Of a stretch of 34,451 nucleotides of DNA, positions 11,137 through 27,778 are shown one piece after another (position 1 is the stretch's first letter; each line of letters begins with the position of its first letter). The stretch comes from a virus: positions 1 to 34,451 of the IMG/VR virus record IMGVR_UViG_3300025816_000043; one strand, 5' to 3'. The notes beneath the pieces are model-generated. The model was not told the origin of the DNA. It ran no database searches and saw nothing but the letters and a program-made list of their open reading frames with translations. The translations under genes were made by a program, and so were the position numbers.

Positions 11137-12459
11137 ATGCCAAATAATTACCCACAAACGCCTGAAGTAGCTCGTAATTCTGTTAAATCCCTAAATGCAG
11201 AAATTGCTAATCTTACCCCTTCGGCTTTAGTCACGATGTTTGAGATTGATATTTCTCAACTTGCGTTAGATTCCAATATAAATCTTTCACAAGACGCTGA
11301 ATCCCAAGGAATTCAACAGGGTCAAGCAGAAGATGGTATATTGAGGTTCCATAATAACATAAAAGTTTTTAATTCTTATATTATATGGCAAGGTAAGACT
11401 TACTACCCTGCCCCGATAAAGGCTTCAGGTTTTGAAACCACTACAAAAGGTTCTCTACCTCAACCGTCTCTTTCCATTACAGCAAATTCTGAAAACGGTA
11501 TCGATCAGATAGCCCTTTTAAAATACGAAATAAGAAAAATAGGAGATATAGTTGGAGCTAAAGTAACAAGAAAAAGAACTTTTGCCAAATATTTAGATAC
11601 GGTTAATTTTGGAACGAGTAAGCTGGCACGAGTAGGTAAAGAAAGTAATATGTTGCCTGCTGGCTATGAACCTGATCCTTATGCCTATTTGCCAGATGAT
11701 ATTTACTATATCGAAAGAAAACAAACAGAAAACAAAGTAAATTTAGTCTATCAGCTCTCCTCAGTGTTGGATTTAGAGGGAACAAAACTTCCCAAGAGAG
11801 TATTGTTGGCAGATAAATGTGTTTGGCAGTATAGAGGTATTGGATGTTGGTACCAGCACCCGGAACAGGGGAGTGAATCTGGAGGAGGAGAATTACAAAA
11901 CTATGCTACAACCGATACTACTCCTGAAAATGTAGAGATACCTATTTTAAGAAAAGCTAGATTAAAAACTTTAAGAAATGACGGTATAATAAAAGACTCG
12001 GATGGAAACAATGTCACAGAGAACTCGTCAAACCGTAAAAAACTCCAAGGGTGCGGAATGCTGCTTAATTCTCCCCCTGTAGCTACTGATTCTGACGATG
12101 ATATAATTACTGAAGCATTACAAAACCAATCAGTAGACAATTTTTCTTTCGAAAATCTAGGACTTTTTAATAAAGAGTCCTCGGATGGTTACAAAATTGG
12201 AAATTATGTATATATAGTAAAAGATTCAGTCAAATATTATTATGTTTGTAAAAAAACGATGAACGCCGGACAAATTGTAGCACCGCCTAGCACTGACTAT
12301 TGGGTTGCTGATCAATGCTCAAAAAGTTTAACAGGATGTAGATTAAGGTGGGGGGCGCGAAATAGAAAAACTGCTAATAAAGGCGGTTGTCAAATTCAAA
12401 TCGGACAATTGCCATACGGAGGATTTCCTGCTGCTAAAAAAATAGCAAGAGGAGGGTAA
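11137..12459 (+). CDS. Minor tail protein, lambda gpL-like, likely iron-sulfur protein
   Basis: A 440-residue protein of the gpL family, which joins the tube end to the tail-tip complex. The N-terminal part has L-T-P-S-A-L-V-T-M-F-E-I-D and a repeated beta region; the end, G-Q-L-P-Y-G-G-F-P-A-A, is the usual gpL close. Four Cys sit where the family places its [4Fe-4S] ligands: C228 and C237 (C-x8-C) and C394 and C401 (C-x6-C), with C-x-x-x-L-T-G-C at the second pair. Between the pairs lies an insert of about 150 residues. Its end (about 350-392: Y-K-I-G-N-Y-V-Y-I, K-Y-Y-Y-V-C, T-D-Y-W-V-A) resembles the sugar-binding-like module of the preceding gene. Order M-L-K-I-J supports the call. Confidence 0.85.
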   Translation: MPNNYPQTPEVARNSVKSLNAEIANLTPSALVTMFEIDISQLALDSNINLSQDAESQGIQQGQAEDGILRFHNNIKVFNSYIIWQGKTYYPAPIKASGFETTTKGSLPQPSLSITANSENGIDQIALLKYEIRKIGDIVGAKVTRKRTFAKYLDTVNFGTSKLARVGKESNMLPAGYEPDPYAYLPDDIYYIERKQTENKVNLVYQLSSVLDLEGTKLPKRVLLADKCVWQYRGIGCWYQHPEQGSESGGGELQNYATTDTTPENVEIPILRKARLKTLRNDGIIKDSDGNNVTENSSNRKKLQGCGMLLNSPPVATDSDDDIITEALQNQSVDNFSFENLGLFNKESSDGYKIGNYVYIVKDSVKYYYVCKKTMNAGQIVAPPSTDYWVADQCSKSLTGCRLRWGARNRKTANKGGCQIQIGQLPYGGFPAAKKIARGG

Positions 12460-12463
12460 AAAA

Positions 12464-13192
12464 ATGAAACTCACTGAAGATATAAAAAAATCAATAAAAT
12501 TGCATTCTCTTAAAGAAGCTCCAAAAGAATGCTGTGGTTTAATCGTATCCCGTGATAATTCGAATCAGATTTTCAATTGTCGAAACGTTTCAAATGAACC
12601 CACCAAACATTTTTCAATCTGTGCTCTGGATTATGTTAAGGCAAGTGACTCTGGGGATATAAAAGCTGTATATCACTCTCATCCATCTACCAGTGAGAAA
12701 TTTTCATCCTACGATATGTTGAATAGCAAGGGTCATGATCTGTTTTATATCTTATACAATATTGAAAAAGATATTTTCTCTACATTTGACCCCAAAAAAG
12801 AAAAAACATTTATTCATGACAAACCTTTCGTAATGGGTAAAACTGATTGCTATAATTTTGTAACAGAATATTACAAGAGCTTAAATATAAATCTATCAGA
12901 CTCTCCAAAAACACGAGATGAAGAATGGCAAAGTAAAATGCCTAACCTACCTGAAGAAATAGCTTCAATGAACCCTTCTCTAAGAGAGATTGATGATTTT
13001 TCATTGGCAAAGAAACATGACATATTACTTTTTAAAATGATTCCCGGAAAAAAAGCTAATCATGCCGGTGTATACCTAGGGGATAAAAAAATAATTCATC
13101 GACCTAGAAATATGTATACGACAATCGAGAACATGTCTGAAAAAATCATAAAAAAAATCTATAAAATTTATCGTAATGAGCAATTTAACTAA
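12464..13192 (+). CDS. Tail-tip peptidase, lambda gpK-like (JAMM plus NlpC/P60)
   Basis: A 242-residue two-domain enzyme. The N-terminal JAMM/MPN domain has all its metal and catalytic positions: E22, then H71-S-H73-P, S81 and D84 in the H-x-H-P-x6-S-x2-D pattern. The C-terminal NlpC/P60 domain has catalytic C129 in T-D-C-Y-N-F, H200 in N-H-A-G-V-Y-L-G, and H212 in I-I-H-R-P. The family cuts peptidoglycan peptides, so this protein would open the cell wall at the tail tip during entry. An AGGAGGG ribosome site lies just before the ATG. The next gene starts 17 bases before its end. Both domains appear intact. Confidence 0.9.
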   Translation: MKLTEDIKKSIKLHSLKEAPKECCGLIVSRDNSNQIFNCRNVSNEPTKHFSICALDYVKASDSGDIKAVYHSHPSTSEKFSSYDMLNSKGHDLFYILYNIEKDIFSTFDPKKEKTFIHDKPFVMGKTDCYNFVTEYYKSLNINLSDSPKTRDEEWQSKMPNLPEEIASMNPSLREIDDFSLAKKHDILLFKMIPGKKANHAGVYLGDKKIIHRPRNMYTTIENMSEKIIKKIYKIYRNEQFN

Positions 13193-13931
13193 CATTAAAG
13201 TTCATGGCATTTTAGCTGAACAACTAGGAAGAAAAGAATGGAAACTTTCGGTAAACAGTGTTTCTGATGCTATCAGAGGCGTAGAAGCCAACTGTAAGAA
13301 GTTTTACAAAACCCTTTGGGAGAATGATAGAAAAAATATAAAATATAGAGTACTGATAAATAAAAAAGATTTTGCAATTGAAGAAGGTAAAGACCCTAAC
13401 ACTTTAGAAGGTCTTTACTCGTCTGAGTTAACGTTAAATAACCCTAATATAAAAACAATCGACATCGTGCCAGTTGTTGAAGGAGCTGGAGGCAACGCAA
13501 TGGCGATTGTAACAATTATAGTAGGTGTAGCTATGATAGCTATAGGAGCTGGGGTATTACTTCCTATGATGATGAGTAAAGCCATGTCAACTGCCTTAAT
13601 ACTTGGTGGCGTAGGTTTGGTAGCTGCCGGTGTCACAAACCTCCTAACACCTATGCCTAAATTCGGAGATTTTAGAGAAATAGAACAAGGGGGATCAAAA
13701 TCTTATCTTTTTAACGGTCCCGAAAATACAATTCGAGAAGGGGGTCCGGTATATGTAGCTTACGGAAGATTACTTGTTGGTAGTCATGTTATACAAAGCG
13801 CTGTAGATACTCTAGATATAGATGCAGAAGTACAGCCTAAAGACGAATGGGGTAACCCCACTGATGGGCTAAAATATTCTTTTAACCCAAGTATACCTAT
13901 AAATACAACAAATTGGAACGGAGGAGAGTAA
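13176..13931 (+). CDS. Tail assembly protein, lambda gpI-like
   Basis: A 251-residue protein in the gpI position between K and J. Residues 1-95 look like the ubiquitin-like N-terminal domain of the family (I-K-V-H-G-I-L-A-E-Q-L-G then D-A-I-R-G-V-E-A-N). Residues about 108-133 and 139-155 are long hydrophobic Gly/Ala-rich segments that could insert in a membrane, also typical of gpI. The C-terminal part after L-T-P-M-P-K-F-G-D-F includes N-T-I-R-E-G-G-P-V-Y-V-A-Y-G, a phrase common in these proteins. gpI acts in tip assembly with J. The 17-base overlap with K suggests coupled translation. Confidence 0.85.
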   Translation: MSNLTNIKVHGILAEQLGRKEWKLSVNSVSDAIRGVEANCKKFYKTLWENDRKNIKYRVLINKKDFAIEEGKDPNTLEGLYSSELTLNNPNIKTIDIVPVVEGAGGNAMAIVTIIVGVAMIAIGAGVLLPMMMSKAMSTALILGGVGLVAAGVTNLLTPMPKFGDFREIEQGGSKSYLFNGPENTIREGGPVYVAYGRLLVGSHVIQSAVDTLDIDAEVQPKDEWGNPTDGLKYSFNPSIPINTTNWNGGE

Positions 13932-13937
13932 TAAAAA

Positions 13938-16900
13938 ATGGGATCTAAGAAAAAACCTAAAAAAGCACGTAATCCAGTAATAGATGTTGCTGCAGTAAGA
14001 GTAGACTCAAATTCAGACGGAGTACCAGAGTACGTAACGTCTCGCTCTTACGCTGAAATTGTAGATTTAATTTCAGAAGGGCCTATCGAAGGAATAACTA
14101 GCGGTAACTATAGTTATACTAGAAACGACAATGTAACAGGTTATCAAAAAGTAGAATTCACTCATTATACAGCAACAGGCGTAGACCCTAGTAGCGCAAC
14201 TCAGTCAAAAGAGCTTGGATTTTTAAGGTCAGTTTATTGGAATGAAGTACCTGTTGTGGATAGAAGTGGATTTTATAACTTTTCTTCAGTCAACTTAAAT
14301 TATGTAAAAGGTAACCCTTCTGGAGATATACCTGAAGCAAATGAAAACCTTCCTACTTTCGGCGCTGTAGGTTCCAACAGAATAATGGACCTCTCCATCA
14401 ACAGAACGATAGGAGAAAGACTTTATGGACCTGAAATTAAAGGGGCAGACGATTCACCTACTAACACCAAATACGCAACATCAAAATCTCCAATAGATAA
14501 ATACGCGAAGACTTATAGTATACTTAATAAAGAATGTAATGAAATTATAGTTCGTGTAAAAGTACCATCACTACAAGAAAATTTACAATTCGGCGAAAAA
14601 ACTTATAAAAAACGACAAGCAGCGACAGGTTATGGAGACACAAAAGCTCGCATTATAGAATATAGTATTTTTTATCAACCTATGTTCAATGATAGGTTCG
14701 GGTCAAATAAAACGACAAGTGATACATTCTCCCAATTCTCCACTGAATCTTGGGAGCTTGCTAAAAATGAAATAATAGAAGGTAAGATAGAAGAAGGGTA
14801 TATTAGATCCACTACTATTGATCTTTCAGACAAAGGATTTCAAGATAAAGATAACTTCGAAGGATGGAGGATTAGGATCGTAAGAACGACCCCGGAATCT
14901 ATTACTTCCTTTTTAAGAAACCAATCTTTTGTAGATTCTATTGTTGAAGTTTATGGAACAAAATTAAGATACCCTTACTCATCCATGGTCTATTCTTTAT
15001 TTGATGCAAGATCTTTTCAAAGAATACCTTCCAGAGCATATGATGCGAGATTACTAAAAGTAAAAGTCCCCAATAACTATAACCCATTATTAAAAAGTTA
15101 TGGAGACAGTTCTGAGTCCATGGCAACTAAAGTTCAGGGGATAGCAGTAGGAGCAGCTACAAACTCAACCACAAGCACTAACGGCGCTACTTGGACAAGG
15201 GTCAGTGAAGACGCTACTGTAGAATGGGACGGTAATTTTGCTGAAGATTTGATTTGGACAGATAATCCCGCTTGGTGTTTTTATGATTTGATTACTAACC
15301 CTAGGTATGGGTTAGGAGAATTTGTAGATGCATCTCAAATAGATAAATGGGCACTCTATGATGTAGCAAAGTACTGTGATGAACTTGTAGATGACACTTA
15401 TGGAGGGTTTGAACCGCGCTTTACAATTAACTATATAATTACATCCCGAGAAGAAGCTTTTAAAGTTCTTAATGATTTATCTTCTATTTTTAGAGGTATA
15501 GCGTACTACAGTAATGGTAGTATTTTTTCATCTCAAGACAAACTCAAATCTGCTATTTACAGTTTTAATAATTCAAATGTCCTCGATGGTAATTTTACCT
15601 ATTCTAGCTCGGCAAAGAAAGCCCGTCATACTGTAGCTATTGTAAGATACAACGATAAAAGAAATAGCTACCAACCTGCCGTGGAATACATGGAGGATGA
15701 AGAGTATGTAAAAAGGTATGGGATTAGAGAATTGGAAACGACAGCTCTTGGGTGTACCAGTAGAGGACAAGCAAGGAGATTTGCAAAATGGATTTTAGCC
15801 AGTGAGTCTGAAGAAACAGAAACATCTAGTTTTAGTGTTGGCATGGATGGGGCTTATTTGAGACCCGGTGATGTAATTAGTATTTATGATAACTATAGAA
15901 ATCCATTAAAATATAGCGGCAGGACTAATGCTGTAGTAAAAGGCGGGACAGATGTTACGTTTGTTAATAGGCTAACTGAAGCTGCATTAACAGCTAGTCA
16001 AAGAGGTTATGTTAATAGTATTATCATAGATCAAGCTCTTAACTTCAAACAGAACAAAAAATATAAATTCTCATTACTAACCCCTACATACGATTACAAT
16101 CAGGAAGATGTAAGCAGTAGCGTTGACATAGATGAGGGCGTTAGAAGAACTCAGATTCAAAATCTCGCTTTTAACGGATCTGATGTAATAAACATCACAG
16201 GAGAACCGGGAGCTTTTAGGTCAGATTTAAATTATGAAGGGTCTGGAGTTTGTACCAAAATTTACTTTAATAGCGGAATGAGAGTCGAAGATACCGCTGG
16301 AGCAACCAAGGGAAATGTGGGGTCTCCTTACACTGGCAATCAGCTCAATTTTCAAGATTATGTTATTACGGGATACTCAAAATACATGGCAAGTGTCGGA
16401 ATGGGATCTGCCGTACCGTATTCTGGTAACTATTACTCAGGACAAAATCTTATTTGGAGCGTGGAACCTTTATTCGACAATGACCCTGAATTTATAAATA
16501 ATAATGAATCTGCATATAGAATTATAAATATTGCCGAAGATGAAGACTCTACTTACTCTATCTCAGCTTTAGCTTACTCTACCGGAAAATATGAATCAGT
16601 AGATTCGGTAGGATCTTCATATACAAAAGATAACGTACTTGATCTATTCTTCCCGGTGAAAAATAACGCTGCAAACTCTTCCAATAGAGACGAATGGATT
16701 AATAGTTATCCTGATCAAACGCCCCCAACACCTGAAAACAGTGCAGGTAAAAGAAATTCAGATATACTAGATGTCATATTAGATACCCCAAGTATTCCGG
16801 GTACATACCCAGACAAAGGGCAAAATTTAGTCACTTTAAAATCTGAATTTTCTGTAGCTGGATTTAAAAATAATCTAAATATAGCTGATGACGGTAAGAG

Positions 16901-19466
16901 TGTTGGTATAAATTATGGAGAGAGTAATAATATAAATAATATTAGTTATTCTTTTATGATTGCAGCCACAGGAAATCCTCAGATAACTACTAATTGGAAT
17001 GGTTCAGCTAAAGACGGTCGAATAACCCCAGTTGAAGGTGTTACATATATAGTCGATAAAGGATCCTATGACGCTGTAAAACAAAATGAGGTTAAATTAA
17101 TAACCCCTGAAAATACTAAATTTTTCAATAATATAGAAGGTCAGCAAAAATCAAAAATTCAAATTGAGAATTTAATAAGTGAAAATGGCGACTATTATGT
17201 TATAGTATACCCAATTTCGAATGTTGGAGTGATAGGTCATGGTCTTTTTAGAAAAATAACAGTTAGTACTGATAAATTTACAGCCCCGGTTCAGACTTTT
17301 TCAATTAGTAATTTAACTACTCGAGGTTCTGATGGTTTTCCTATTCAGTCTACTGCAAGTGATGTAAGAGGTTACTCGTTAGATAATACCAATCCTACGT
17401 TTGAGTGGCAGGTAAGCTCTCAAAAAGGTATTTTTAACATGAGCGAAGAAGAGCAGGCCGGAAATATAGGAAATGATGGCAACTTAGGCTTCGGAAGATA
17501 CGAACTAAATTTTGATGTCGTTCAAAATATAGATTATCGAGTCACGATTAGAAGACCTTCTAATGTTGAAGGTCTTGGTGTGACAAGTACTTCGGCGAAT
17601 GTTCCTGATGGTCATATATATTTTGAGTTTACAGGATATACGTCGCCTTCAACTAAACCTACTTTTCTTTTCGGCGAAGAGATTAACAATCCGGATTTAA
17701 TTGATGATTTAAAGAGCGCGAGTTATACGAGCACTAATCTAAACGCTAGAGGATTCAGCAAATATGAAGGTACTAGCCAATCATCTACCTTTTATAAAGC
17801 CACACCTAGTGGAATGGTGATAAGGGAGTCTGAAGAATTACCTTTAAGACAGTTTGACATAGTTATAGAAACACAAGACGAGCAAGGGGAAACGAGTGCT
17901 GGAAATCAAGTTTATTACAACACTGTACCAATCCTAAATACCGATGGAACTATAAAAAGCCCTCCATCAGAAGAATCTTGGAATCCAGATGGCTTCAATT
18001 CAACTTATGATATTCTAGGCGTAAAAATAGATTCTCCTAGTGGTATATTTTTCTCTCAGTCTAGTAGTGAGAAAGGACAAGATAATGAATACTTTACGAT
18101 GGATGAGGTAGCTAAACTCAATTACCCTTACAAGGCTTCGATGAAGTTACTTACTGAAGGGACTATAGATGTTACTTTTGAAGCTGTAGAAGCACTAGAT
18201 GGTCAGCGAACTTTAACAGATCAAGAGTTGGATCGATTTTTTAATGATGTAGAGGGTGTTGTATATTACTATACCACTGGAGACAACAGTAGAAACGATA
18301 ACGATCAGTATTTAAATCCTGCTCCAGAATTTAAGCTAAGTATTAATACTCAGGACAAGCATGGAGCGTATAACATTAAATCAAATCAAAATATAAACAA
18401 CAATAGAAGTAGTAGTGTTGATGCGGTAGATGGTAACGGTTTTGCTTTTGACAAAGTCGTTCTTTTAGATGCAGGATATGCAAATCATCAAAAATTTATG
18501 CCAGACGGTACCGCGAAAGATCCTTATGTAAAACCTAGGGTTCACAGAGGTTATCATGTATTCAGCGCTAATGAAGGTATAGATGGATTTAAAATTCCAT
18601 TTTCGATGATTAATAATCCTGAAGTTACTAATATAAATATAGCCATTGCACTTTTTGATAGTTTATCTTTACGTAGAGCTTTTATTACAGATGAAAATGA
18701 TAGTCCTAAGTATGATGTCTCTACAACAAATCAAGAGTCTCCAAGAATATTCAGCGATCATACGTTGAACTTCTCCACCTTACCTAATAGAGAGGTAGAG
18801 TATAATTTCTCAAACCCATTTAGGACTATAGATGGTACAGATGGTACACCGTTTTTAGAGCCTTTAGGAACCTCTTTTAGGTTGAGAGAGTTTAGTGCTG
18901 TCTCAGCGGCCTTTAAATCAATGACATTTGCTTGTTGGGCAGAGTTAGTGGTCGCTCATAATAAAGAGCAAGCTCAAACAGCTCTAGACATAACAAATCG
19001 CACTACTGGTGACCAGCCAGACGACATAGGTATGAGCGTATTCCGTGCTAGCGGAAGCAGGTATAAATCATTGATAATTAACACTTCCGAAACTAATGAT
19101 AAAAATCTTTGCAAATCTATAGTTAAAGGTGATTTGGTAGATATAAATAACATTCAAGTATGGGTTGGTAATACACAGACTGCAGGGGGCTGGAGAGAGA
19201 GAAACTTTTATATTCAAATTAAGTTTAATAGACCTTTAAACAAAAATAAGTATACAGTTTTTGTAGACACAGGTTCCCCCGGTGGTATTGCAGGGGGTAG
19301 AGACGGAACAGCAGTTATAAATTCTGACAATATTGTCAAATATAATGACGCAGCTTTCCTTGTATTTAAACAAGACCCCATATTTAAGTCATACGAGGAA
19401 TGGAGGCATATAGTAAATGCCGGAGGTATAAAATTTAAATTTGGTATTCTTGTTGATTTAGAGTAA
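13938..19466 (+). CDS. Tip attachment protein, lambda gpJ-like (central tail hub and host-binding fibre)
   Basis: An 1842-residue J-like protein. The N-terminus is basic, then D-G-V-P-E-Y-V and E-I-V-D-L-I-S-E-G-P-I-E-G-I, a hallmark of J. Around residues 445-535 the hub signature appears: W-C-F-Y-D-L-I-T-N-P-R-Y-G-L-G, A-K-Y-C-D-E-L-V, E-P-R-F-T-I-N-Y and I-F-R-G-I-A-Y-Y. These parts should form the trimeric hub that plugs the tube. From about residue 900 the protein is beta-rich, with FN3-like and unclassified segments, and is longer than in lambda J (about 1130 residues); this part probably carries receptor binding. It has a GGAGG ribosome site. The gene is last but one in the operon. Confidence 0.85.
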   Translation: MGSKKKPKKARNPVIDVAAVRVDSNSDGVPEYVTSRSYAEIVDLISEGPIEGITSGNYSYTRNDNVTGYQKVEFTHYTATGVDPSSATQSKELGFLRSVYWNEVPVVDRSGFYNFSSVNLNYVKGNPSGDIPEANENLPTFGAVGSNRIMDLSINRTIGERLYGPEIKGADDSPTNTKYATSKSPIDKYAKTYSILNKECNEIIVRVKVPSLQENLQFGEKTYKKRQAATGYGDTKARIIEYSIFYQPMFNDRFGSNKTTSDTFSQFSTESWELAKNEIIEGKIEEGYIRSTTIDLSDKGFQDKDNFEGWRIRIVRTTPESITSFLRNQSFVDSIVEVYGTKLRYPYSSMVYSLFDARSFQRIPSRAYDARLLKVKVPNNYNPLLKSYGDSSESMATKVQGIAVGAATNSTTSTNGATWTRVSEDATVEWDGNFAEDLIWTDNPAWCFYDLITNPRYGLGEFVDASQIDKWALYDVAKYCDELVDDTYGGFEPRFTINYIITSREEAFKVLNDLSSIFRGIAYYSNGSIFSSQDKLKSAIYSFNNSNVLDGNFTYSSSAKKARHTVAIVRYNDKRNSYQPAVEYMEDEEYVKRYGIRELETTALGCTSRGQARRFAKWILASESEETETSSFSVGMDGAYLRPGDVISIYDNYRNPLKYSGRTNAVVKGGTDVTFVNRLTEAALTASQRGYVNSIIIDQALNFKQNKKYKFSLLTPTYDYNQEDVSSSVDIDEGVRRTQIQNLAFNGSDVINITGEPGAFRSDLNYEGSGVCTKIYFNSGMRVEDTAGATKGNVGSPYTGNQLNFQDYVITGYSKYMASVGMGSAVPYSGNYYSGQNLIWSVEPLFDNDPEFINNNESAYRIINIAEDEDSTYSISALAYSTGKYESVDSVGSSYTKDNVLDLFFPVKNNAANSSNRDEWINSYPDQTPPTPENSAGKRNSDILDVILDTPSIPGTYPDKGQNLVTLKSEFSVAGFKNNLNIADDGKSVGINYGESNNINNISYSFMIAATGNPQITTNWNGSAKDGRITPVEGVTYIVDKGSYDAVKQNEVKLITPENTKFFNNIEGQQKSKIQIENLISENGDYYVIVYPISNVGVIGHGLFRKITVSTDKFTAPVQTFSISNLTTRGSDGFPIQSTASDVRGYSLDNTNPTFEWQVSSQKGIFNMSEEEQAGNIGNDGNLGFGRYELNFDVVQNIDYRVTIRRPSNVEGLGVTSTSANVPDGHIYFEFTGYTSPSTKPTFLFGEEINNPDLIDDLKSASYTSTNLNARGFSKYEGTSQSSTFYKATPSGMVIRESEELPLRQFDIVIETQDEQGETSAGNQVYYNTVPILNTDGTIKSPPSEESWNPDGFNSTYDILGVKIDSPSGIFFSQSSSEKGQDNEYFTMDEVAKLNYPYKASMKLLTEGTIDVTFEAVEALDGQRTLTDQELDRFFNDVEGVVYYYTTGDNSRNDNDQYLNPAPEFKLSINTQDKHGAYNIKSNQNINNNRSSSVDAVDGNGFAFDKVVLLDAGYANHQKFMPDGTAKDPYVKPRVHRGYHVFSANEGIDGFKIPFSMINNPEVTNINIAIALFDSLSLRRAFITDENDSPKYDVSTTNQESPRIFSDHTLNFSTLPNREVEYNFSNPFRTIDGTDGTPFLEPLGTSFRLREFSAVSAAFKSMTFACWAELVVAHNKEQAQTALDITNRTTGDQPDDIGMSVFRASGSRYKSLIINTSETNDKNLCKSIVKGDLVDINNIQVWVGNTQTAGGWRERNFYIQIKFNRPLNKNKYTVFVDTGSPGGIAGGRDGTAVINSDNIVKYNDAAFLVFKQDPIFKSYEEWRHIVNAGGIKFKFGILVDLE

Positions 19467-19475
19467 AATTAATAT

Positions 19476-20348
19476 ATGAAGCCCGAAGTTTTCGAAGCGT
19501 CAATAAAAAAAGACACAAATAGACTATATCTTAGCAGCGAAAGAAAAGTCGTTTGTAAAAACGGAGCTTTTTTAAGTATAGGCGATAATGAAATATATTA
19601 CCAAGCGGAAAATTTTGAATCTATCAATATCAAAAGAAAATTTGAAGGTTCAGGAAAATCATTAAAAGTAAAAGGAGATTTTAGTTTTCGTCTTACTGCT
19701 GGGGATAAATTAGATATTGATTTTGAAGAATATGAAGCTATTGAAGTCTCAAACATAAAACAAGAGAATAAATTTAAATACAGCTACGGAGATAAAATAT
19801 ATGCTCAGGGAGGAACGGCTTCAAGCAGCAGCAAAAACTTAACTGGCGAATATACTGAATTCACTGTAAAAAAAGTAGACCCTAAAGGTAGGATTTTGGA
19901 AATGTCCATTTCTGCTCCCGGTAAATATATTGAGCCGCCCTCCAATCCAGTTCAGATCATGAATGAAGAAGGGCACTTCATAACTGCAGATATTGAATTT
20001 GATCAATCAGAAACTCAATCTGTCCTTGAAAGAAATATAATGAGTGTCCAGATTGTAGATGGATATACTGAGATAGAACTACTTTATTCGCTGCCTAATA
20101 GAGTCAGAAATGGAAATATCTATTTATCAAAACAGGTAATCATTTTAAATAAAGACTATAATCACTCCTCTATAGAAAACGTGATGTGTGAAATGACTTT
20201 TGATTTTTCTCCTATCGCTAAAATACCTATATTACCTCATGATTCCATCAACCCTCATGCGATGTACAACGAGGGTATTAAAATGATAGAGCTTAAATTT
20301 ATCGAGCTCGAAAAAAGAATCTCCAATCTAGAGAATAGAAATTATTAA
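19476..20348 (+). CDS. Tail-tip-associated protein with C-terminal coiled coil
   Basis: A 290-residue protein with no family I recognise. The first 200 residues are mixed beta with charged loops; a Ser-rich loop (A-S-S-S-S-K) lies near 118. The C-terminus, about 262-290, is a heptad-like helix (I-E-L-K-F-I-E-L-E-K-R-I-S-N-L-E-N), likely to trimerise. Its ATG is 9 bases after J, in an AT-rich gap (AATTAATAT) without a clear Shine-Dalgarno sequence. Position and coiled coil suggest a protein added to J or to a side fibre. The stop overlaps that of the convergent tape measure. Confidence 0.55.
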   Translation: MKPEVFEASIKKDTNRLYLSSERKVVCKNGAFLSIGDNEIYYQAENFESINIKRKFEGSGKSLKVKGDFSFRLTAGDKLDIDFEEYEAIEVSNIKQENKFKYSYGDKIYAQGGTASSSSKNLTGEYTEFTVKKVDPKGRILEMSISAPGKYIEPPSNPVQIMNEEGHFITADIEFDQSETQSVLERNIMSVQIVDGYTEIELLYSLPNRVRNGNIYLSKQVIILNKDYNHSSIENVMCEMTFDFSPIAKIPILPHDSINPHAMYNEGIKMIELKFIELEKRISNLENRNY

Positions 20349-23300
20349 CTCTGGGAATGTAACAAGCCTCCCGGTCTTTGCTGTTTTATAAGCTCATCGA
20401 GTACAACACTTTGAAGAGCTTTTCCTAGATCTGCATTGTTCTGAACGTCTTCACTTTCTTCTCTCGCTGACTCTGAACCACTCTGGGAACCGGCAGTGGC
20501 ACTAGCTTCTGCTTTTCCACTTTTATCGATGTTAACATTAATCTTAACATTATTGGTCATGTTACCACTCATGACTGATCCTGAACCGCCGGTAGCTACC
20601 CCGCCAGTTTGGTTACCAACTAAACCGCCAGAAGCGTAACGAGGAACATTTCCGCGATTAAGTTCTGTCATGAAATCTACACCGTGAGTACGGACTGCTT
20701 GAGGGCTCATGACATATTCGCCGCCCATAACTTTAGCTAAACCTCCATTAGCGTTATTACCTCCCACCAAAGATTCATAAGCGCTCCGAGAGTTGTCAAA
20801 ACCACCACCAGCGCCGACTCCTCCTACTAATTTTTCGTATGCGTCTTTAGAATTGTCAAACCCCTCTGGACTAACGCCTGATGCTGCTCCCCCAGCAGTA
20901 CCAGCTCCACCTCCAAAAAGTTTAGCTCCACCAATCAACATGGCGGCATTCATGTAAGCTCCAATTAGTCGAGATTTTTTCTGATCTTTAACAGCTTGCG
21001 TTTGAGCTCTTCTACTTGCTTTTTCTCCAGCTATATAGTTTTGATAATTAGCAATTCTCTGCTCCTTATCAAACATTCTTGATGTCTGAGGATCGCCTTC
21101 ATCAAGTCTTCCCATTAGTGATAAAGCACTGCTTACTTCAAATCTTCCTTCAGTAGGTCTTGCTCTTTCACTTACTAATCTTCCAGTCTCTGGGTCTCTT
21201 CTATAATATACAAAACCTTTGGACAATGAAACGTTAGCTGAAGTTCCGCCACCTGAAGCTCTATCAATCTGACCACCATCAGGATCTGCTCCACCTAGAT
21301 AACCTAGACTACCTCTTCCCATTCCATAGTTTCTGGAAGGTAAAGGTTTGTCAGGACGATCTTGCATCGCTGCGCCGAGTATCCCAGTTGCTGCGCCACT
21401 TACTCCTGCTACAAGACCCATGGTACCCATACTAGGCCCTGTAGAGCCGCCATTTGCATAGCCATTTATTGCATTTAGTTTGCCTATTCCGATTCTGTTG
21501 ACAGCAGATTTTTTAATAACAAATTCTCCGCCTTGCATTTTAGTCAATACGTCATCTTTGTAGCCAGATCCACCTGTTACTAATCCTCCAGCAGCATAAC
21601 CGGGAACATATCCACCTTTAGCAAAATTTCCCGGAGAATTATTTCCAAACATTTTTGAAAACATCATGTTCGTAAATATTTGGGTGGACATTTGGTTTAT
21701 CGAGCTCAGAATACTTTGAGCCATGTTAGCTAAAGCTCCTTGTACGGTTGTAGCGCCGCTTGATATGGATTGAAAAGCATCGGCAAAAGATGATTTCATT
21801 GTGCCTGCTACATCTTTAACACCATCTCTAAAATCACCAAAAGCGTCTACGTCACTATAAGACATTTCATTTTTAAATGTTTGACCCATAACACCGCCAA
21901 AATTAACTGATCTTACTCCACCCGCAGCTATTTGAGCGTTTACACTAGCTTCATAAGCGCTACCGACTCCTCGTGCTCCTAACTGACCTGAAGCGGCTAA
22001 TCTTTTTGCTTCTTGAAACTCTGCTGACGCAACATCAGCTTGTATTTCGCGCAGTTCTTGACGCCGAACTGTATTGATTGTGCGTTGTAATTTTAGTAAT
22101 TCTAATTGTACTTGATAGTTTTTCTCTGCTAGAGCTTTTGCATTGATTTCTGTCTCTGAAGATGCATCTGTAGCTTTCTGATGTTTTTCGTAAGCTTTAG
22201 TTAGGGTCTCTAGTATTGGCGGTAAATTTTCTGAAGCTAAAAAAGTTTTAAGACCCTCTTCAGTACTAGATTGAAAGACTCTATCGGACAAATCCAACCC
22301 TTTAACGGAAGCTAACTGCTCTAATAAATCATCTGTCACAGATTTTCCATCTACTCCAGTGCTTATGCTTTCCCTAGCTTGAGTAAAAATATCCAAAGCT
22401 CGTTTAGCTTCAGGAGCTCCCAACGTTTGGCCTTCAATAAATTTTACTACATCAAGATCTTTTAACCCGGATTTAATATCTATCTCTAAAGTTTTCGCAG
22501 CTGCCTCCGTAGCATCTTCACTAATTTTTGCTGCTCTTTCGACAGCTATATCTCTACTAACTCCAACTGCGCCGGCTTGCGTCATCGTAGCTCCAGCTCT
22601 TCCAGTTCTTAAATTACCCTCTATCCCAAGTATTGCGAGTTCTTGAGCTGAAGATCTTTTAAATGTATCTAATTGTCTTTGAAGTTGAAACACGCTATCT
22701 CTGTACTCTGCTTGAGCCTTCATGGCTTCATAGATCACATTTGTGTATTCGGACTGAGCTAGGCTTTCTTTACCTTTTTGGTCATTTATTTGTTTTTGAC
22801 GCTTCGCTTCTTCTTCTTGAACTTTTGATAATATTTCTCCATTCGTATAGAGAGTTATAATTCTATTATTAAACTCAGTTAAAGCTGCGTTTCTTTTTTC
22901 AAGCCCCCCTTCCTCTTTAACTATTTCTTGTAGCCCCTTTTCTACAGGGTTCCTAAATTCTTTATAAGCTTTTTCTGACATACCCATAGCAGCCGCTGCT
23001 GAAGCTGTACTAGTTCCCAAATTAGCAGATTGTGCAGCGTAAGGAATATTCCCCCTTTTTACTACATCTCTTATAACTCCCTCTGGAGAATATTTGGTGC
23101 CCTCTAATTTAGATATAAGTTCATCAGCTGCAGTTTTTCCAGCTCCCGATTCCAAACCTAAAACTGTTTTCAGATTCCCTTCACCTCCGTAATATATATC
23201 GTCTATCCCACCGCCTCCGACTGACTGCTGGCGCACCATGCCTTTAAAATTCGAAATGTTTGCAACATTTTGAAAAGCTTGGACTTTTTCTCCCTGTTCT

Positions 23301-26300
23301 GTAAAAGCGGAACTAACCTGACCAAAATTACCTTTATCAGCCTTTAGTAAATCTTTATACTCTTTAGATCCTATCATGCTTGGAAAAGCCTTGGACAAAT
23401 CCCCAATTACCTGTTCTTTACGGGTTACAAACTCAGCCGCTGATAAACTTTCAGCGACTTCACCAAAAGCCACAGCAGATTCTTTAGCTGTATTGTTAGC
23501 TTCTTTCTGAGCTGCAATTTGTTCTTTTAATTTTTCCGAAGCGTCTTCACTGGTAGAACTTAAAGCAGTAACTACTTCAGATAAGATACCAACCCCACCC
23601 ATGGCGAGCACCCCCGGAAGACCTCCTCCTATCCCTGTTAATGCTGATCCTGCTACACGACCTACTGGATTATCGAATGTCCCCATTAGCGTGGTTCCTG
23701 CTCCCATACCAGCAAAACCAAGTCCCATACCGCCACCTTGAAGTTTTTCATTGACACTACCGTATATCCCCCTTGCCCTGTTACCAATTCCACCTCCTTT
23801 TGTTGCTGGTTTAGAAAATTTACTTGCCGAATTAATTACCCTTCCAAAAGCATCTCTTAAGACTGGGTTAAAATTAGGCACAAATCCTTCTGCCGCTCCA
23901 TGACTTTTAGGATTAATCCCCATCGACCTAGATCTACTAATCCCCTGATTTAAACCTCTTGGTTCATCTATTGTATTATAAACACCTAAACCAGAAGGGT
24001 TTCCAGAAGAACGTAAAGCAGGACTAGATCCTACTCTAATTTTTGAAGCTGGGACTCCTGCCTGTCTTTCTCTGGAAATGGAAGAGCTCAAAGGGCTAAA
24101 GTTAGGAACATAACCAAGAGCTTTTAGTTTTCTACCTCCCATTTGACTAGATATTGCTGCCATACCCATATCTCGTGTTACAGGATCATTGAAATATTTT
24201 TTTGGCATTTCTCCAGAACCAGCAGACGAAAGTCTTCTTTTCGCATCTATACGAAGAATTGGCTCACCAAATATTTTTGACATCGCAACAGAAGGTTTAG
24301 CGCCTGCCTCGAAATCGAAAGCTGCACCGGGAATTGCTACTGCAGCTTTCATAGCCATCCTCATAGATTCTTCAAACACCTCTCCTTGTAAGGATTTACT
24401 AAGATGCCCCATCCTTCCCGGATTGCCCTCTATACCGAGTTGGGACATTATATTTTTTGACAGAGTACCTATTCCTGACTTCAGGTTAGTGCTTAAAGTT
24501 GATTCAAAATGCTTTTCAGCTCTGTCCTCGCTACTACCTGAAAGAAAACTTCTTACCCTTACTCCTTTTAAATTAATCTTAGCGTTTTCTTTTGTTAAAA
24601 TTTTTCCTAAAGGTGTTTTAGATAGACCTGATAATGAACTTGCATTTGCGGAAAAATCTTTTTTCTGATCCATCCCAGATGCGCCAAAACCTAACAGAAC
24701 CCCAATATTACTGGCGGGAATATCGTATCTTTTATTTAAACGACTCCCTGCTCTAGATTTTCTAATAGTCCCAGCTCTAAGTAGATCTTTACTGAGACGA
24801 GGGGCAAAATTAGGGATAAATCCTTCAGCAGCATAAGGGTTAAATCCATGTGCAGCGCCGAAAGCTGACTTATATCCTGCTCCAGCGGGACTATTTTTTG
24901 GAGGCATGATTGCCTTTTGACTCATGCCGGGAAATTGTTTAACAGTTTCCGCAGAGTTGTACATCATGGTGCCAGCACCGGGCTGACTCATCGTTTTGAT
25001 TGCTCCAGCAGTATATCCTCCCGCCGCTGCCGCCGCTCTTTCTCCATTAGCATCAGCAAAATTCGGTACAAACCCAGAGGCTCTACCCATACCCCTACTA
25101 AAAGCTCTACCGCTAGAACCAACACGAGTTCCCCTTTGGTACAAGGAACCTGCTACAGCTCCTCCATACCCTTTTAGCGCGGCTCTTTCAGCTTGCTGCT
25201 GCTTTATTGTAGCAAGTATTTGTCTTTCAACATCGAGAACACTTAATGTTCCCATTTTAACTTTTTGTAATAGGGCAGGTTCACTGGCTAAAGTGTTTAC
25301 AACAATTTGCTCTAACGCCGCTCTCTGTTTAACAGCGGTATTTATACCCATTATATCTTTAAAAGCTGTAGTAGCAAATTTACCCAAACTTAAGGCTAAT
25401 TTACCAAACACTGCAGTAGCTATAATTAAACCGGGACCACCTATAAATTTACCTATGCCTTTAACTAAATTTTTACCTATTCCTTCGCCAAAACTCTCAA
25501 ACTTACCGCCTTCACTAAAAGCTTCTATAGTAGAATTTACAGTGTTTAAAACATTACTAATAGCAGGGCCAAAAATATTCCCTCCCAAAGCTGACCCAGC
25601 TTGAACTAGGTTAGCCATGGTTTTATTAACTAAAGAGTCTAATGTTTGATTAAGTTTTTCATTTTTGCGATAAGCTTCGTCAGTAGCAGTATTTGCTGCT
25701 CTTAAAGCCCCAGCATAAGCAGAGTTTTGTTGGGACAAGTCAGCCAATGCAGATTTTAAAATATTAACCTGAAATACTCCTGCAACACTTTCTGCTGTAG
25801 AGGCTTGTTGAGATTTAGTTAGGCTATTAAAATTATTAGCTAAGTTTTGCAGGACTTGAATACCAGACAACATTTCTCCATTCATGTTTCGGGTAGCAAC
25901 ACCTATATTTTCTAATTTCTGTTGGACCTCGGAACGCTGAATACGGGTAAATATAGTTTTAAATGCGTTACCAATAACTGCACCACCACGAGCAGTCCTT
26001 TGCTGAACGGCTGTGGTTATAGCCATCAACTCATTCATACTTACTCCTGCTGATTGAGCAGAAGCTCCAACTCGAGAAATTGATTTGGCTAAGTCTTCAG
26101 AGCTTACAGCAAATTGAGCATCAACCTTTGCCATCCTGTTAACAACTTGAGCAGAGGTTGCTCCTTCTTTACTAAATGAGTTTACAGCAGCAGTAAGGGA
26201 CTTCACAGCATCTGCTGCGTTCATTCCTGTAAGTCGAGTCAGGATAAGAGCATCTTTGGTTCTAGCTAGGGTTTTTTCCATCCCCAAACCTTGACGAGCT

Positions 26301-26752
26301 AATTCAGTAGAAGCTTCTGCAACTGTAGAAAATCCTTGAGCAGTATCTTTGGCAACCTTGAACATTCCTTTGCCGAATTGTTCAAGCTGTTTGTTAGAAA
26401 CATTCATGACGACATTTACGTCAGCCATGGCTTTTTCCACCTGAATGGTAGTTTTAACCATAGCTCGCAAAGCTCTGTCAACATTCATGATCAATCCTGC
26501 TGAAGCGCCGAAAGCTATAACACGAGCATTGGAAGCTTCTAGGGATTTGCTGAATTCGTCTGCGCGAACTGTAGCTTTGGACAGACCGGTGCCGAGGGCT
26601 CTAACTTTATTACCCGCACCACCACCAGCGCCAGAGAAAGCTTGTCCCATGGTTTTACCCATTTTACTTAGCTCACGATTCATCTGCTTAATCGTGGCTT
26701 CCGCTTTCTTAGCGTTTAATAATAAATCGACTTCTATTTGATCCCTAGCCAT
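20345..26752 (-). CDS. Tail tape measure protein, TP901 family, with inserted cassettes
   Basis: A 2135-residue protein that sets tail length and is ejected at infection. Residues about 80-290 match the TP901 core (V-E-K-A-M-A-D-V-N-V, A-R-Q-G-L-G, S-V-S-M-N-E-L-like helix, G-N-A-F-K-T-I-F-T-R-I-Q). Hydrophobic stretches occur near 430-455 and 1040. Four G-[FY]-[VI]-P-N-F motifs start at residues 560, 644, 880 and 956 and frame short domains unlike the helical rest. The C-terminal part has coiled coils (about 1240-1620), then two Gly-rich G-G-E-[FY]-V units followed by V-P-x-Y-A-x-G-G-like turns, common in tape measures. At 1.5 angstroms per residue the whole length would be about 320 nm, but the inserts may not span the tube. 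It sits 3' of the chaperone-position genes. Confidence 0.93.
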   Translation of the reverse strand: MARDQIEVDLLLNAKKAEATIKQMNRELSKMGKTMGQAFSGAGGGAGNKVRALGTGLSKATVRADEFSKSLEASNARVIAFGASAGLIMNVDRALRAMVKTTIQVEKAMADVNVVMNVSNKQLEQFGKGMFKVAKDTAQGFSTVAEASTELARQGLGMEKTLARTKDALILTRLTGMNAADAVKSLTAAVNSFSKEGATSAQVVNRMAKVDAQFAVSSEDLAKSISRVGASAQSAGVSMNELMAITTAVQQRTARGGAVIGNAFKTIFTRIQRSEVQQKLENIGVATRNMNGEMLSGIQVLQNLANNFNSLTKSQQASTAESVAGVFQVNILKSALADLSQQNSAYAGALRAANTATDEAYRKNEKLNQTLDSLVNKTMANLVQAGSALGGNIFGPAISNVLNTVNSTIEAFSEGGKFESFGEGIGKNLVKGIGKFIGGPGLIIATAVFGKLALSLGKFATTAFKDIMGINTAVKQRAALEQIVVNTLASEPALLQKVKMGTLSVLDVERQILATIKQQQAERAALKGYGGAVAGSLYQRGTRVGSSGRAFSRGMGRASGFVPNFADANGERAAAAAGGYTAGAIKTMSQPGAGTMMYNSAETVKQFPGMSQKAIMPPKNSPAGAGYKSAFGAAHGFNPYAAEGFIPNFAPRLSKDLLRAGTIRKSRAGSRLNKRYDIPASNIGVLLGFGASGMDQKKDFSANASSLSGLSKTPLGKILTKENAKINLKGVRVRSFLSGSSEDRAEKHFESTLSTNLKSGIGTLSKNIMSQLGIEGNPGRMGHLSKSLQGEVFEESMRMAMKAAVAIPGAAFDFEAGAKPSVAMSKIFGEPILRIDAKRRLSSAGSGEMPKKYFNDPVTRDMGMAAISSQMGGRKLKALGYVPNFSPLSSSISRERQAGVPASKIRVGSSPALRSSGNPSGLGVYNTIDEPRGLNQGISRSRSMGINPKSHGAAEGFVPNFNPVLRDAFGRVINSASKFSKPATKGGGIGNRARGIYGSVNEKLQGGGMGLGFAGMGAGTTLMGTFDNPVGRVAGSALTGIGGGLPGVLAMGGVGILSEVVTALSSTSEDASEKLKEQIAAQKEANNTAKESAVAFGEVAESLSAAEFVTRKEQVIGDLSKAFPSMIGSKEYKDLLKADKGNFGQVSSAFTEQGEKVQAFQNVANISNFKGMVRQQSVGGGGIDDIYYGGEGNLKTVLGLESGAGKTAADELISKLEGTKYSPEGVIRDVVKRGNIPYAAQSANLGTSTASAAAAMGMSEKAYKEFRNPVEKGLQEIVKEEGGLEKRNAALTEFNNRIITLYTNGEILSKVQEEEAKRQKQINDQKGKESLAQSEYTNVIYEAMKAQAEYRDSVFQLQRQLDTFKRSSAQELAILGIEGNLRTGRAGATMTQAGAVGVSRDIAVERAAKISEDATEAAAKTLEIDIKSGLKDLDVVKFIEGQTLGAPEAKRALDIFTQARESISTGVDGKSVTDDLLEQLASVKGLDLSDRVFQSSTEEGLKTFLASENLPPILETLTKAYEKHQKATDASSETEINAKALAEKNYQVQLELLKLQRTINTVRRQELREIQADVASAEFQEAKRLAASGQLGARGVGSAYEASVNAQIAAGGVRSVNFGGVMGQTFKNEMSYSDVDAFGDFRDGVKDVAGTMKSSFADAFQSISSGATTVQGALANMAQSILSSINQMSTQIFTNMMFSKMFGNNSPGNFAKGGYVPGYAAGGLVTGGSGYKDDVLTKMQGGEFVIKKSAVNRIGIGKLNAINGYANGGSTGPSMGTMGLVAGVSGAATGILGAAMQDRPDKPLPSRNYGMGRGSLGYLGGADPDGGQIDRASGGGTSANVSLSKGFVYYRRDPETGRLVSERARPTEGRFEVSSALSLMGRLDEGDPQTSRMFDKEQRIANYQNYIAGEKASRRAQTQAVKDQKKSRLIGAYMNAAMLIGGAKLFGGGAGTAGGAASGVSPEGFDNSKDAYEKLVGGVGAGGGFDNSRSAYESLVGGNNANGGLAKVMGGEYVMSPQAVRTHGVDFMTELNRGNVPRYASGGLVGNQTGGVATGGSGSVMSGNMTNNVKINVNIDKSGKAEASATAGSQSGSESAREESEDVQNNADLGKALQSVVLDELIKQQRPGGLLHSQS
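23867..25075 (-). repeat. Four coding G-[FY]-[VI]-P-N-F motifs within the tape measure
   Basis: Copies are at 25055-25075, 24803-24823, 24095-24115 and 23867-23887 (residues 560, 644, 880, 956). Each is preceded by A-x-G or A-L-G and followed by a loop, and they delimit segments of 84, 236 and 76 residues. Similar phrases are known to me from other phage tape measures, from memory only. The final tail-like G-Y-V-P-G-Y-A near the C-terminus may be a weaker relative. Confidence 0.8.
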
Positions 26753-26782: not shown

Positions 26783-27778
26783 CTACATGCCGTGAAGTTT
26801 CATCATATCTTCCATATTAAGTCTTCCGCCTTTTTCTGCAGCTTTTTTGGCTAGGTTTACAGTCTCGTCAGGATTGTCTAATCCAAGGCGTTTTAAGTCG
26901 TCTTTTGTAGCACCAACCAAAGATGTAGCACTACCGTCTTGGCCTGCGTTTTTGGACTTTTCAAGGGTTTCTCTGGCGCTTTTCGTTGAACTAAACCATT
27001 CAACAATTTTTTCAGGATCTTGTCTTATATCATCTGGAACTTTACTCTCAGAATTCTCCATTAAGCTCTTGTAGTACCTTGCGTAACCAAAAAGCTCTAT
27101 TTGATAAAAAGTTAGTTCAACCAAAGGTTTTCCAAAGAAAATATGAGCATTATCCTCACAAAGATAAAATAAATTGGTAAAAAAACCGGAAAGGGATATT
27201 TTTTTAAGGCTTTCGGAGTTAAATTTTTTAGTACTTTTATTATAGATACCTATTAAATCAATTAGAGTGCTCTCATCAAGATCTTCAAAATCTTCCTCAC
27301 TAAATAACTTTTCGCCACCCTCGCTCAGGATAGCATTAAACATGTAATGTTCATTAATCCTACGGGAAGCGTAGTTTTCGGCGGAAAATCCTATTAACTC
27401 TTCTTTTTTTGCCTCTAACTTAATAAGTTTTAACTGCTCACCTTTTATTTGCTCATTAAGCTGATCGATATGAGACTGCAGGAAAACTTTACCTTTAGAG
27501 TTTCTAAGCCCTGCCAACATACTTCTAGACTGTAAAATTTCTTTATTTTCTTTCTCAGTCCAAATATTTTCTTCTAATAGATATTTTATTCGATCATCAC
27601 GAGTCGGCAGACCTTGATTTACAGCTTTATCAAGGAATAGCTTGTTTTTTATATCTAACTCCGCAGAATCGAAATTAGTAAAATGCTTTACCCGAATCTT
27701 TCCATAATCATGAGAATCGACTAAGGTAAAACCTCTTAATATCTCAGAGAAAACAACCTTTAAACTTGCATCTTCCAC
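26783..27778 (-). CDS. Tail-assembly-chaperone-position protein, 331 aa
   Basis: A helical protein of unknown family between the major tail proteins and the tape measure, where phages usually encode tail assembly chaperones (lambda G and GT). A charged coiled-coil stretch lies near 105-130 (H-I-D-Q-L-N-E-Q-I-K-G-E-Q-L-K-L); the middle is helical with aromatic patches; the C-terminal 60 residues are polar. The start is a GTG, and the ORF lies in the same frame as the upstream gene, separated from it only by TAA-GAT. No strong ribosome site is seen, so translation probably depends on the upstream gene. Chaperone or other tape-measure partner is inferred from position only. Confidence 0.55.
   Translation of the reverse strand: MEDASLKVVFSEILRGFTLVDSHDYGKIRVKHFTNFDSAELDIKNKLFLDKAVNQGLPTRDDRIKYLLEENIWTEKENKEILQSRSMLAGLRNSKGKVFLQSHIDQLNEQIKGEQLKLIKLEAKKEELIGFSAENYASRRINEHYMFNAILSEGGEKLFSEEDFEDLDESTLIDLIGIYNKSTKKFNSESLKKISLSGFFTNLFYLCEDNAHIFFGKPLVELTFYQIELFGYARYYKSLMENSESKVPDDIRQDPEKIVEWFSSTKSARETLEKSKNAGQDGSATSLVGATKDDLKRLGLDNPDETVNLAKKAAEKGGRLNMEDMMKLHGM

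Follow-up and report, generated by a model that had tools for sequence, protein, structure and literature searches.

That enzymes can be housed in phage tape measures, that effectors related to tape measures can carry endonucleases or interchangeable domains, and the concept of the polyvalent protein are all already known. The TM4 tape measure contains an enzyme motif, that of a peptidoglycan hydrolase (PMC1796659), and Thermus phage P23-45 has a virion RNA polymerase fused into its tape measure and used on entry, according to the available part of its description (PMC10770324). Tme, from the contractile injection system of Streptomyces davawensis, is a tape-measure-related carrier with an endonuclease, which is C-terminal and EndA-like with DRGH and H-N-N motifs (PMC11126660), and the Sle1-like effectors are tape-measure-related carriers with diverse interchangeable functional domains (PMC13277306). 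In the accessible portion of the paper on polyvalent proteins (Iyer et al. 2017, PMC5512222), these are described as combining several enzyme domains, among them kinases, ARTs, GNATs and metallopeptidases, that are predicted to be injected with the parasite DNA and to evolve in an arms race. In lambda, proximity labelling places the tape measure at the inner membrane of the host during injection (PMC13190303). We compare with these systems a tape measure encoded in a viral stretch of 34,451 nucleotides (the window), in which a nuclease-like segment between copies of a short motif is replaced as a unit among close relatives.

The longest open reading frame (ORF) of the window contains PF10145 PhageMin_Tail at residues 134-325 (E 1.2e-27) and has lambda-like tail-tip genes nearby, which places it among the tape measures; many matches to PHROG tape-measure families agree, with E-values down to 3e-53. 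The tail-tip genes are on the opposite strand (11137-19466, +) and include minor tail protein L (PF05100), a J-like protein (PF13550) and a K-like JAB plus NlpC/P60 protein. Upstream of the tape measure, a gene for 331 aa (26783-27778, -) matches no family above threshold and is without relatives among 50,697 phage records.

An earlier note on this DNA had read four copies of a motif, G[FY][VI]PNF, as framing segments of 84, 236 and 76 aa, and the copies, their coordinates and their spacing are all exact (Table 1). The motif occurs in the tape measure only at these four places and not once in 2000 residue shuffles, and the strings that had been picked out around it (FPGMSQKAIMPP, HGFNPYAA, GVPASKIRVG, VYNTIDEP and SHGAA) are all found in the protein. 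One continuous helix across the motifs would have spoken against separate segments. The model of residues 545-971 (mean pLDDT 65.9, moderate) instead gives mixed alpha/beta blocks with all four motifs in stretches of pLDDT below 50 between them, and no single helix. In this model the low-confidence stretches are probably disordered, and it is this predicted disorder, together with the conserved letters of the motif, that favours a role as a linker or recognition element. Toward the C-terminus of the protein, GGEFVI (residues 1741-1746) and GGEYVM (2010-2015) are similar to ANTGEYVVPNF beside the cassette of L038, and they may share their origin with the frame units described below.

Table 1. 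Features of the tape measure gene, in window coordinates; the first nucleotides of motifs 1 to 4 are 25075, 24823, 24115 and 23887.
Feature	Residues	Window position	Strand	Remarks
Tape measure protein gene		20345..26752	-	2135 aa; PF10145 and PHROG tape-measure families
Motif 1, GFVPNF	560-565	25058..25075	-	
Outer unit U1	560-643 (84 aa)	24824..25075	-	constant frame; near-fixed length in relatives
Motif 2, GFIPNF	644-649	24806..24823	-	upstream boundary of exchanged cassette
Middle cassette	644-879 (236 aa)	24116..24823	-	nuclease-like; exchanged as a unit
Nuclease-like core	784-859	24176..24403	-	G790, E794, D813, D836-x-K838, K852
Motif 3, GYVPNF	880-885	24098..24115	-	downstream boundary of exchanged cassette
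Outer unit U3	880-955 (76 aa)	23888..24115	-	constant frame; NPxGLGVYNTxDEP core
Motif 4, GFVPNF	956-961	23870..23887	-	
Tract after motif 4	about 962-1060	23573..23869	-	differs in L179

A scan of viral contigs returned six relatives of the whole protein, and one profile for each segment found 5, 29 and 17 loci. A degenerate DNA pattern for AxG[FY][VI]PNFA found at least 80 loci. At all 80 loci listed the motif is within an open frame, and 79 of them are long ORFs (340-3487 aa, with 1-7 motifs), the other being a stretch of 53 aa. The non-redundant set used below holds 99 ORFs among the matches listed, many of which are fragments; the tape-measure N-terminal domain is detectable in 73 of these, and the rest mostly start inside the gene. 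All relatives are metagenomic. The motif-bounded region has no match in 50,697 phage records, and none of the isolated phages among those records carries it; taken by itself, the N-terminal domain matches phages of Bacillus and Lactococcus at 25-27%. Some relatives come from metagenome-assembled genomes (MAGs) labelled Flavobacteriales, Halobacteriovorax and Verrucomicrobiales. These labels are only weak hints as to the hosts, and that phages of this class are aquatic is a guess from the same labels.

Comparison with close relatives shows the middle cassette to be exchanged. The DNA of L179, a contig from a MAG, matches that of the window at nearly 100% identity over residues 1100-2060 and at 88-100% over residues 405-655, with U1 and U3 about 95-100% identical in nucleotides. 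Between GFIPNF (644) and GYVPNF (880) the identity is about 28% in amino acids and 44% in nucleotides, and the breakpoints are the motifs. The L179 allele is 262 aa long, has its frame open throughout and keeps GDIFEE, FDF and IEGK. Similarly, L023 and L048 are 99% identical in the N-terminal domain and 96% in both U1 and U3 with cassettes at 40%, and L027 and L036 are 96%, 78% and 87% identical in these parts with cassettes at 17%. L004 and L006 show the reverse case, an N-terminal domain at 46% and a cassette at 74%. Each of three independent pairs shows the exchange with its frames open and its breakpoints at the same two motifs, which bears out the proposal that the motif marks a true boundary. 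Over 24 tape measures the identity of the cassette shows no significant correlation with that of the N-terminal domain (Mantel rho 0.12, p 0.08), whereas U1, U3, the C-terminal part and the tract after motif 4 all track it (rho 0.47-0.64, p 0.001). The window's own allele recurs in L001 at 98% identity. In L028 and L039, two full-length tape measures, U3 is present without U1 or the nuclease, so the slot can also be empty. In L179 the tract after motif 4 is about 25-35% identical to the window in amino acids over most of its length, a second variable tract beside the frame.

What the cassette encodes can be approached through the residues that it keeps. Its length in relatives is 234-326 aa with few exceptions, and identity is about 20%. 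In an alignment of 27 cassettes, 15-98% identical to that of the window and mostly near 20%, the only invariant positions apart from the bounding motifs are G147, E151, D170, K195 and K209 (cassette numbering). A profile of the core at E < 0.01 collected 63 domains among the matches listed. In these 63 the glycine, the central aspartate and the lysine of the (D/E)xK element are each present throughout (63/63), the first acidic position is E in 59 and D in 4, the third is D in 47 and E in 16, and the second lysine is K in 60 and Q in 3. All 63 cores have the catalytic residues of the PD-(D/E)XK superfamily, whose signature we take this E-D-(D/E)xK pattern to be. Iterating the profile gave 76 domains in 75 of the 99 ORFs, of which 71 have the motif on both sides and the other 5 are near the start of truncated ORFs; among the non-redundant ORFs of at least 1500 aa that were found by the motif, 35 of 42 have the core (both counts among the matches listed). 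In the model of the cassette (pLDDT 78.7) there is a helix over E151 and a strand over RIDAK, and this predicted layout agrees with the usual PD-(D/E)XK arrangement. Going by these residue patterns, we hold with good confidence that the cassette is a nuclease-type enzyme.

Searches against known families and folds gave no name for it. Foldseek returned no structural match for the cassette model in PDB or BFVD, Foldseek and VIA-align gave no useful match for the cassette and three-segment models, the cassette profile matched nothing sensible among PDB sequences, and no Pfam family scored above threshold for the cassettes. With hhalign, the cassette matched the PD-(D/E)XK families Mrr_cat, UPF0102 and DUF559 no better than three control families, at a depth where known pairs also failed. 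An identity as Cas4/Csa1, raised by Pfam and PADLOC searches of the 27 cassettes, was rejected, as single members gave E-values of 0.0066-0.051 and an unrelated Cmr5 match was equally strong.

A nuclease in this position could simply be part of a housekeeping entry step, processing the incoming genome or aiding the passage of DNA through the envelope, a role that has been discussed for Tme, where an endonuclease domain is on a tape-measure-like carrier (PMC11126660), and for DNA-entry nucleases. We regard this as improbable. It does not predict that alleles are replaced between near-identical phages, and the E, D and (D/E)xK invariants of the cassette are unlike the DRGH and H-N-N motifs of Tme; no histidine is invariant or nearly invariant in the 27-sequence alignment. 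It could also be a catalytically dead or structural spacer of nuclease ancestry with a role in tail length or in the hub, as might be suspected of a domain in a structural protein whose length matters and for which the fold search finds no match. At about 20% identity, however, it is the catalytic positions alone that are invariant, which is the opposite of what a loss of catalysis would leave, and a difference of about 90 aa in cassette length between relatives is a poor fit to a ruler. This second explanation we consider quite unlikely.

The two outer units behave differently from the cassette. U1 is 84 or 82 aa long in relatives and U3 is 76, 74 or 71 aa, each with few exceptions. They are the most conserved of the protein parts compared, U1 having a mean pairwise identity of 75% among relatives, and the NPxGLGVYNTxDEP core pattern of U3 is present in 53 of the 99 ORFs (among the matches listed). 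In diverged pairs the divergence at 4-fold sites is equal in the N-terminal domain, U1 and U3 (0.37-0.38, saturated), whereas protein identity is 57% in the N-terminal domain, 75% in U1 and 68% in U3. Given equally saturated sites and a better conserved protein, U1 and U3 are under purifying selection at the protein level, and the same equal divergence rules out recombination as the sole cause of their conservation. The suggestion that the segments are cargo is supported for the middle one, an exchanged unit with a nuclease signature, and not for the outer segments of 84 and 76 aa, which by the pattern of their conservation form a near-constant frame and not cargo. By eye U1 (MMYNSAETV...HGFNPYAAEGFIPNF) and U3 (GVYNTIDEP...INPKSHGAAEGFVPNF) are alike, and they may be paralogues.

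The suggestion that other tape measures contain similar motif-separated units is also supported, in that further enzyme-like segments are found between motifs there. In L132 a motif-bounded segment (residues 1057-1483) has a P-loop, GTAGIGKTT, and after it a part that resembles HIGH-type nucleotidyltransferases, with PF16581, a HIGH-type nucleotidyltransferase-associated region, above the Pfam cut-off (E 1.9e-7), suggesting an NMNAT-like cargo. Pfam also gives two matches below cut-off, to a GHKL ATPase in L092 (E 1.6e-4) and to an ATLF-type zincin ahead of the first motif in the truncated ORF of L041 (E 0.0027), and one to a GNAT in L124 (E 0.02). Clustering the segments and inspecting them by eye gave kinase-like segments (GRGxxGxFY, VGVKxF, DLHxxN and DPG), HAD-like segments (DWDGT, TSRP and VDD) and others with a P-loop. 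All of these enzyme-like labels, read from short patterns and profile scores, are leads, not assignments. Residues 1-1000 of the L041 ORF, which is tape-measure-like, run from the ATLF-type zincin to parts that by eye are first kinase-like and then ART-like, with G[FLI][VI]PNF between. L181 and L182, from a Halobacteriovorax MAG, have a tape measure of 4202 aa with seven motifs and long segments between them without the nuclease core, the U3-like unit at the end being the sole segment recognised.

These observations bear on the idea that the cassette is a selfish element of the homing type, whose nuclease would cut tape-measure genes with another allele so that repair copies the cassette in, the flanks serving as recombination arms. 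Homing enzymes of the PD-(D/E)XK type exist, and the exchange boundaries here are sharp and inside conserved flanks. Nuclease genes have also been placed at the boundaries of phage genetic exchange, in the available part of one study (PMC10448857). Nevertheless, homing looks highly unlikely. The nuclease is already in most of the long motif-bearing ORFs listed, and diverged alleles swap for each other rather than invade empty sites. Conserved protein over saturated synonymous sites makes U1 and U3 more than recombination arms, and the kinase-, HAD-, GHKL- and NMNAT-like segments between motifs would be left unexplained. Assembly artefact, in which chimeric contigs mimic exchange, might be feared as the relatives are all metagenomic, but the three independent pairs with open frames and the same two breakpoints, along with the second sighting of the window's allele in L001, make it extremely improbable.

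We are moderately confident in a different explanation, that this siphovirus tape measure has a cargo slot in which a nuclease-like domain is swapped whole and delivered into the host. At the level of sequence, U1 and U3, bounded by motifs, enclose a hypervariable domain with a PD-(D/E)XK-type signature that is replaced whole between near-identical tape measures. The tape measure would be packed in the tail tube and at infection released into the cell envelope, carrying the nuclease domain in with the phage genome or just before it; by analogy with other tape measures, it is likely that the cassette is ejected together with the rest of the protein. The motif-bearing linkers might allow the domain to unfold for passage and refold, or they might be cut to free it. 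Release by proteolysis at the motif seems rather doubtful to us, and the JAB plus NlpC/P60 protein of the window is a possible candidate for the protease. The enzyme would then spare the incoming phage genome and attack some other nucleic acid, with the host chromosome, a plasmid, a rival phage or defence-related nucleic acid as candidate targets. Domains that are exchanged, about 20% identical and conserved only in catalytic residues would be expected from an arms race, and the rapid divergence and exchange would be its mark, over either the target or an inhibitor.

One problem with the cargo explanation is that we identified no reason why an entering nuclease should spare the phage's own DNA, which counts against it. 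The four genes neighbouring the exchanged cassette in L023 and L048 are 92-100% identical, and none of these four co-varies with the cassette as a linked immunity gene would. Protection of the phage genome would then have to come from the choice of substrate, from timing or location, or from a distant gene. A wider version of the explanation, which we offer only tentatively, is that in a large class of uncultured, largely aquatic tailed phages the tape measure is a modular cargo bay, whose row of interchangeable enzymes, punctuated by conserved G[FYL][VI]PNF signals, would pass through the tail, be released at these signals and act on the host ahead of all phage gene expression. Most of them would be nucleases, and sometimes kinase-, HAD-, GHKL-, NMNAT-, P-loop- or GNAT-like.

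Because they are hidden inside structural proteins, the proteins that a phage ejects along with its DNA are difficult to detect. A short motif marking the borders of exchangeable enzyme-like segments allows candidates to be listed from the letters alone, and at the slot described here, tape measures that are otherwise almost the same differ mainly in a nuclease-like domain. The delivery of weapons or counter-defence enzymes by tape measures becomes testable in this way.

In the open-access literature, subscription journals and preprints being outside the scope, we found no account of phage tape measures with a nuclease slot that is bounded by a motif and exchanged, and searches for the motif strings there gave nothing relevant among the matches listed. 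As for polyvalent proteins, the tape measures of L041, L092 and L132 resemble those in the accessible portion of PMC5512222, where tape measures go unmentioned and the features given do not include constant frame units punctuated by a motif. Several enzymes in one protein, the hallmark of that class, are suggested only in some of the motif-bearing relatives. In the tape measure of the window a single enzyme-like domain was recognised, the nuclease-like core, and no metallopeptidase was found. P23-45 differs in that its RNA polymerase is N-terminal in a protein of 5002 aa, with no exchanged cassette slot in the available part of its description (PMC10770324). Tme and the Sle1-like proteins are effectors of bacterial injection systems and not an internal slot of a phage tape measure (PMC11126660, PMC13277306). 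The TM4 enzyme acts on the cell wall (PMC1796659), whereas the cassette described here bears what appears to be the signature of a nucleic-acid enzyme.
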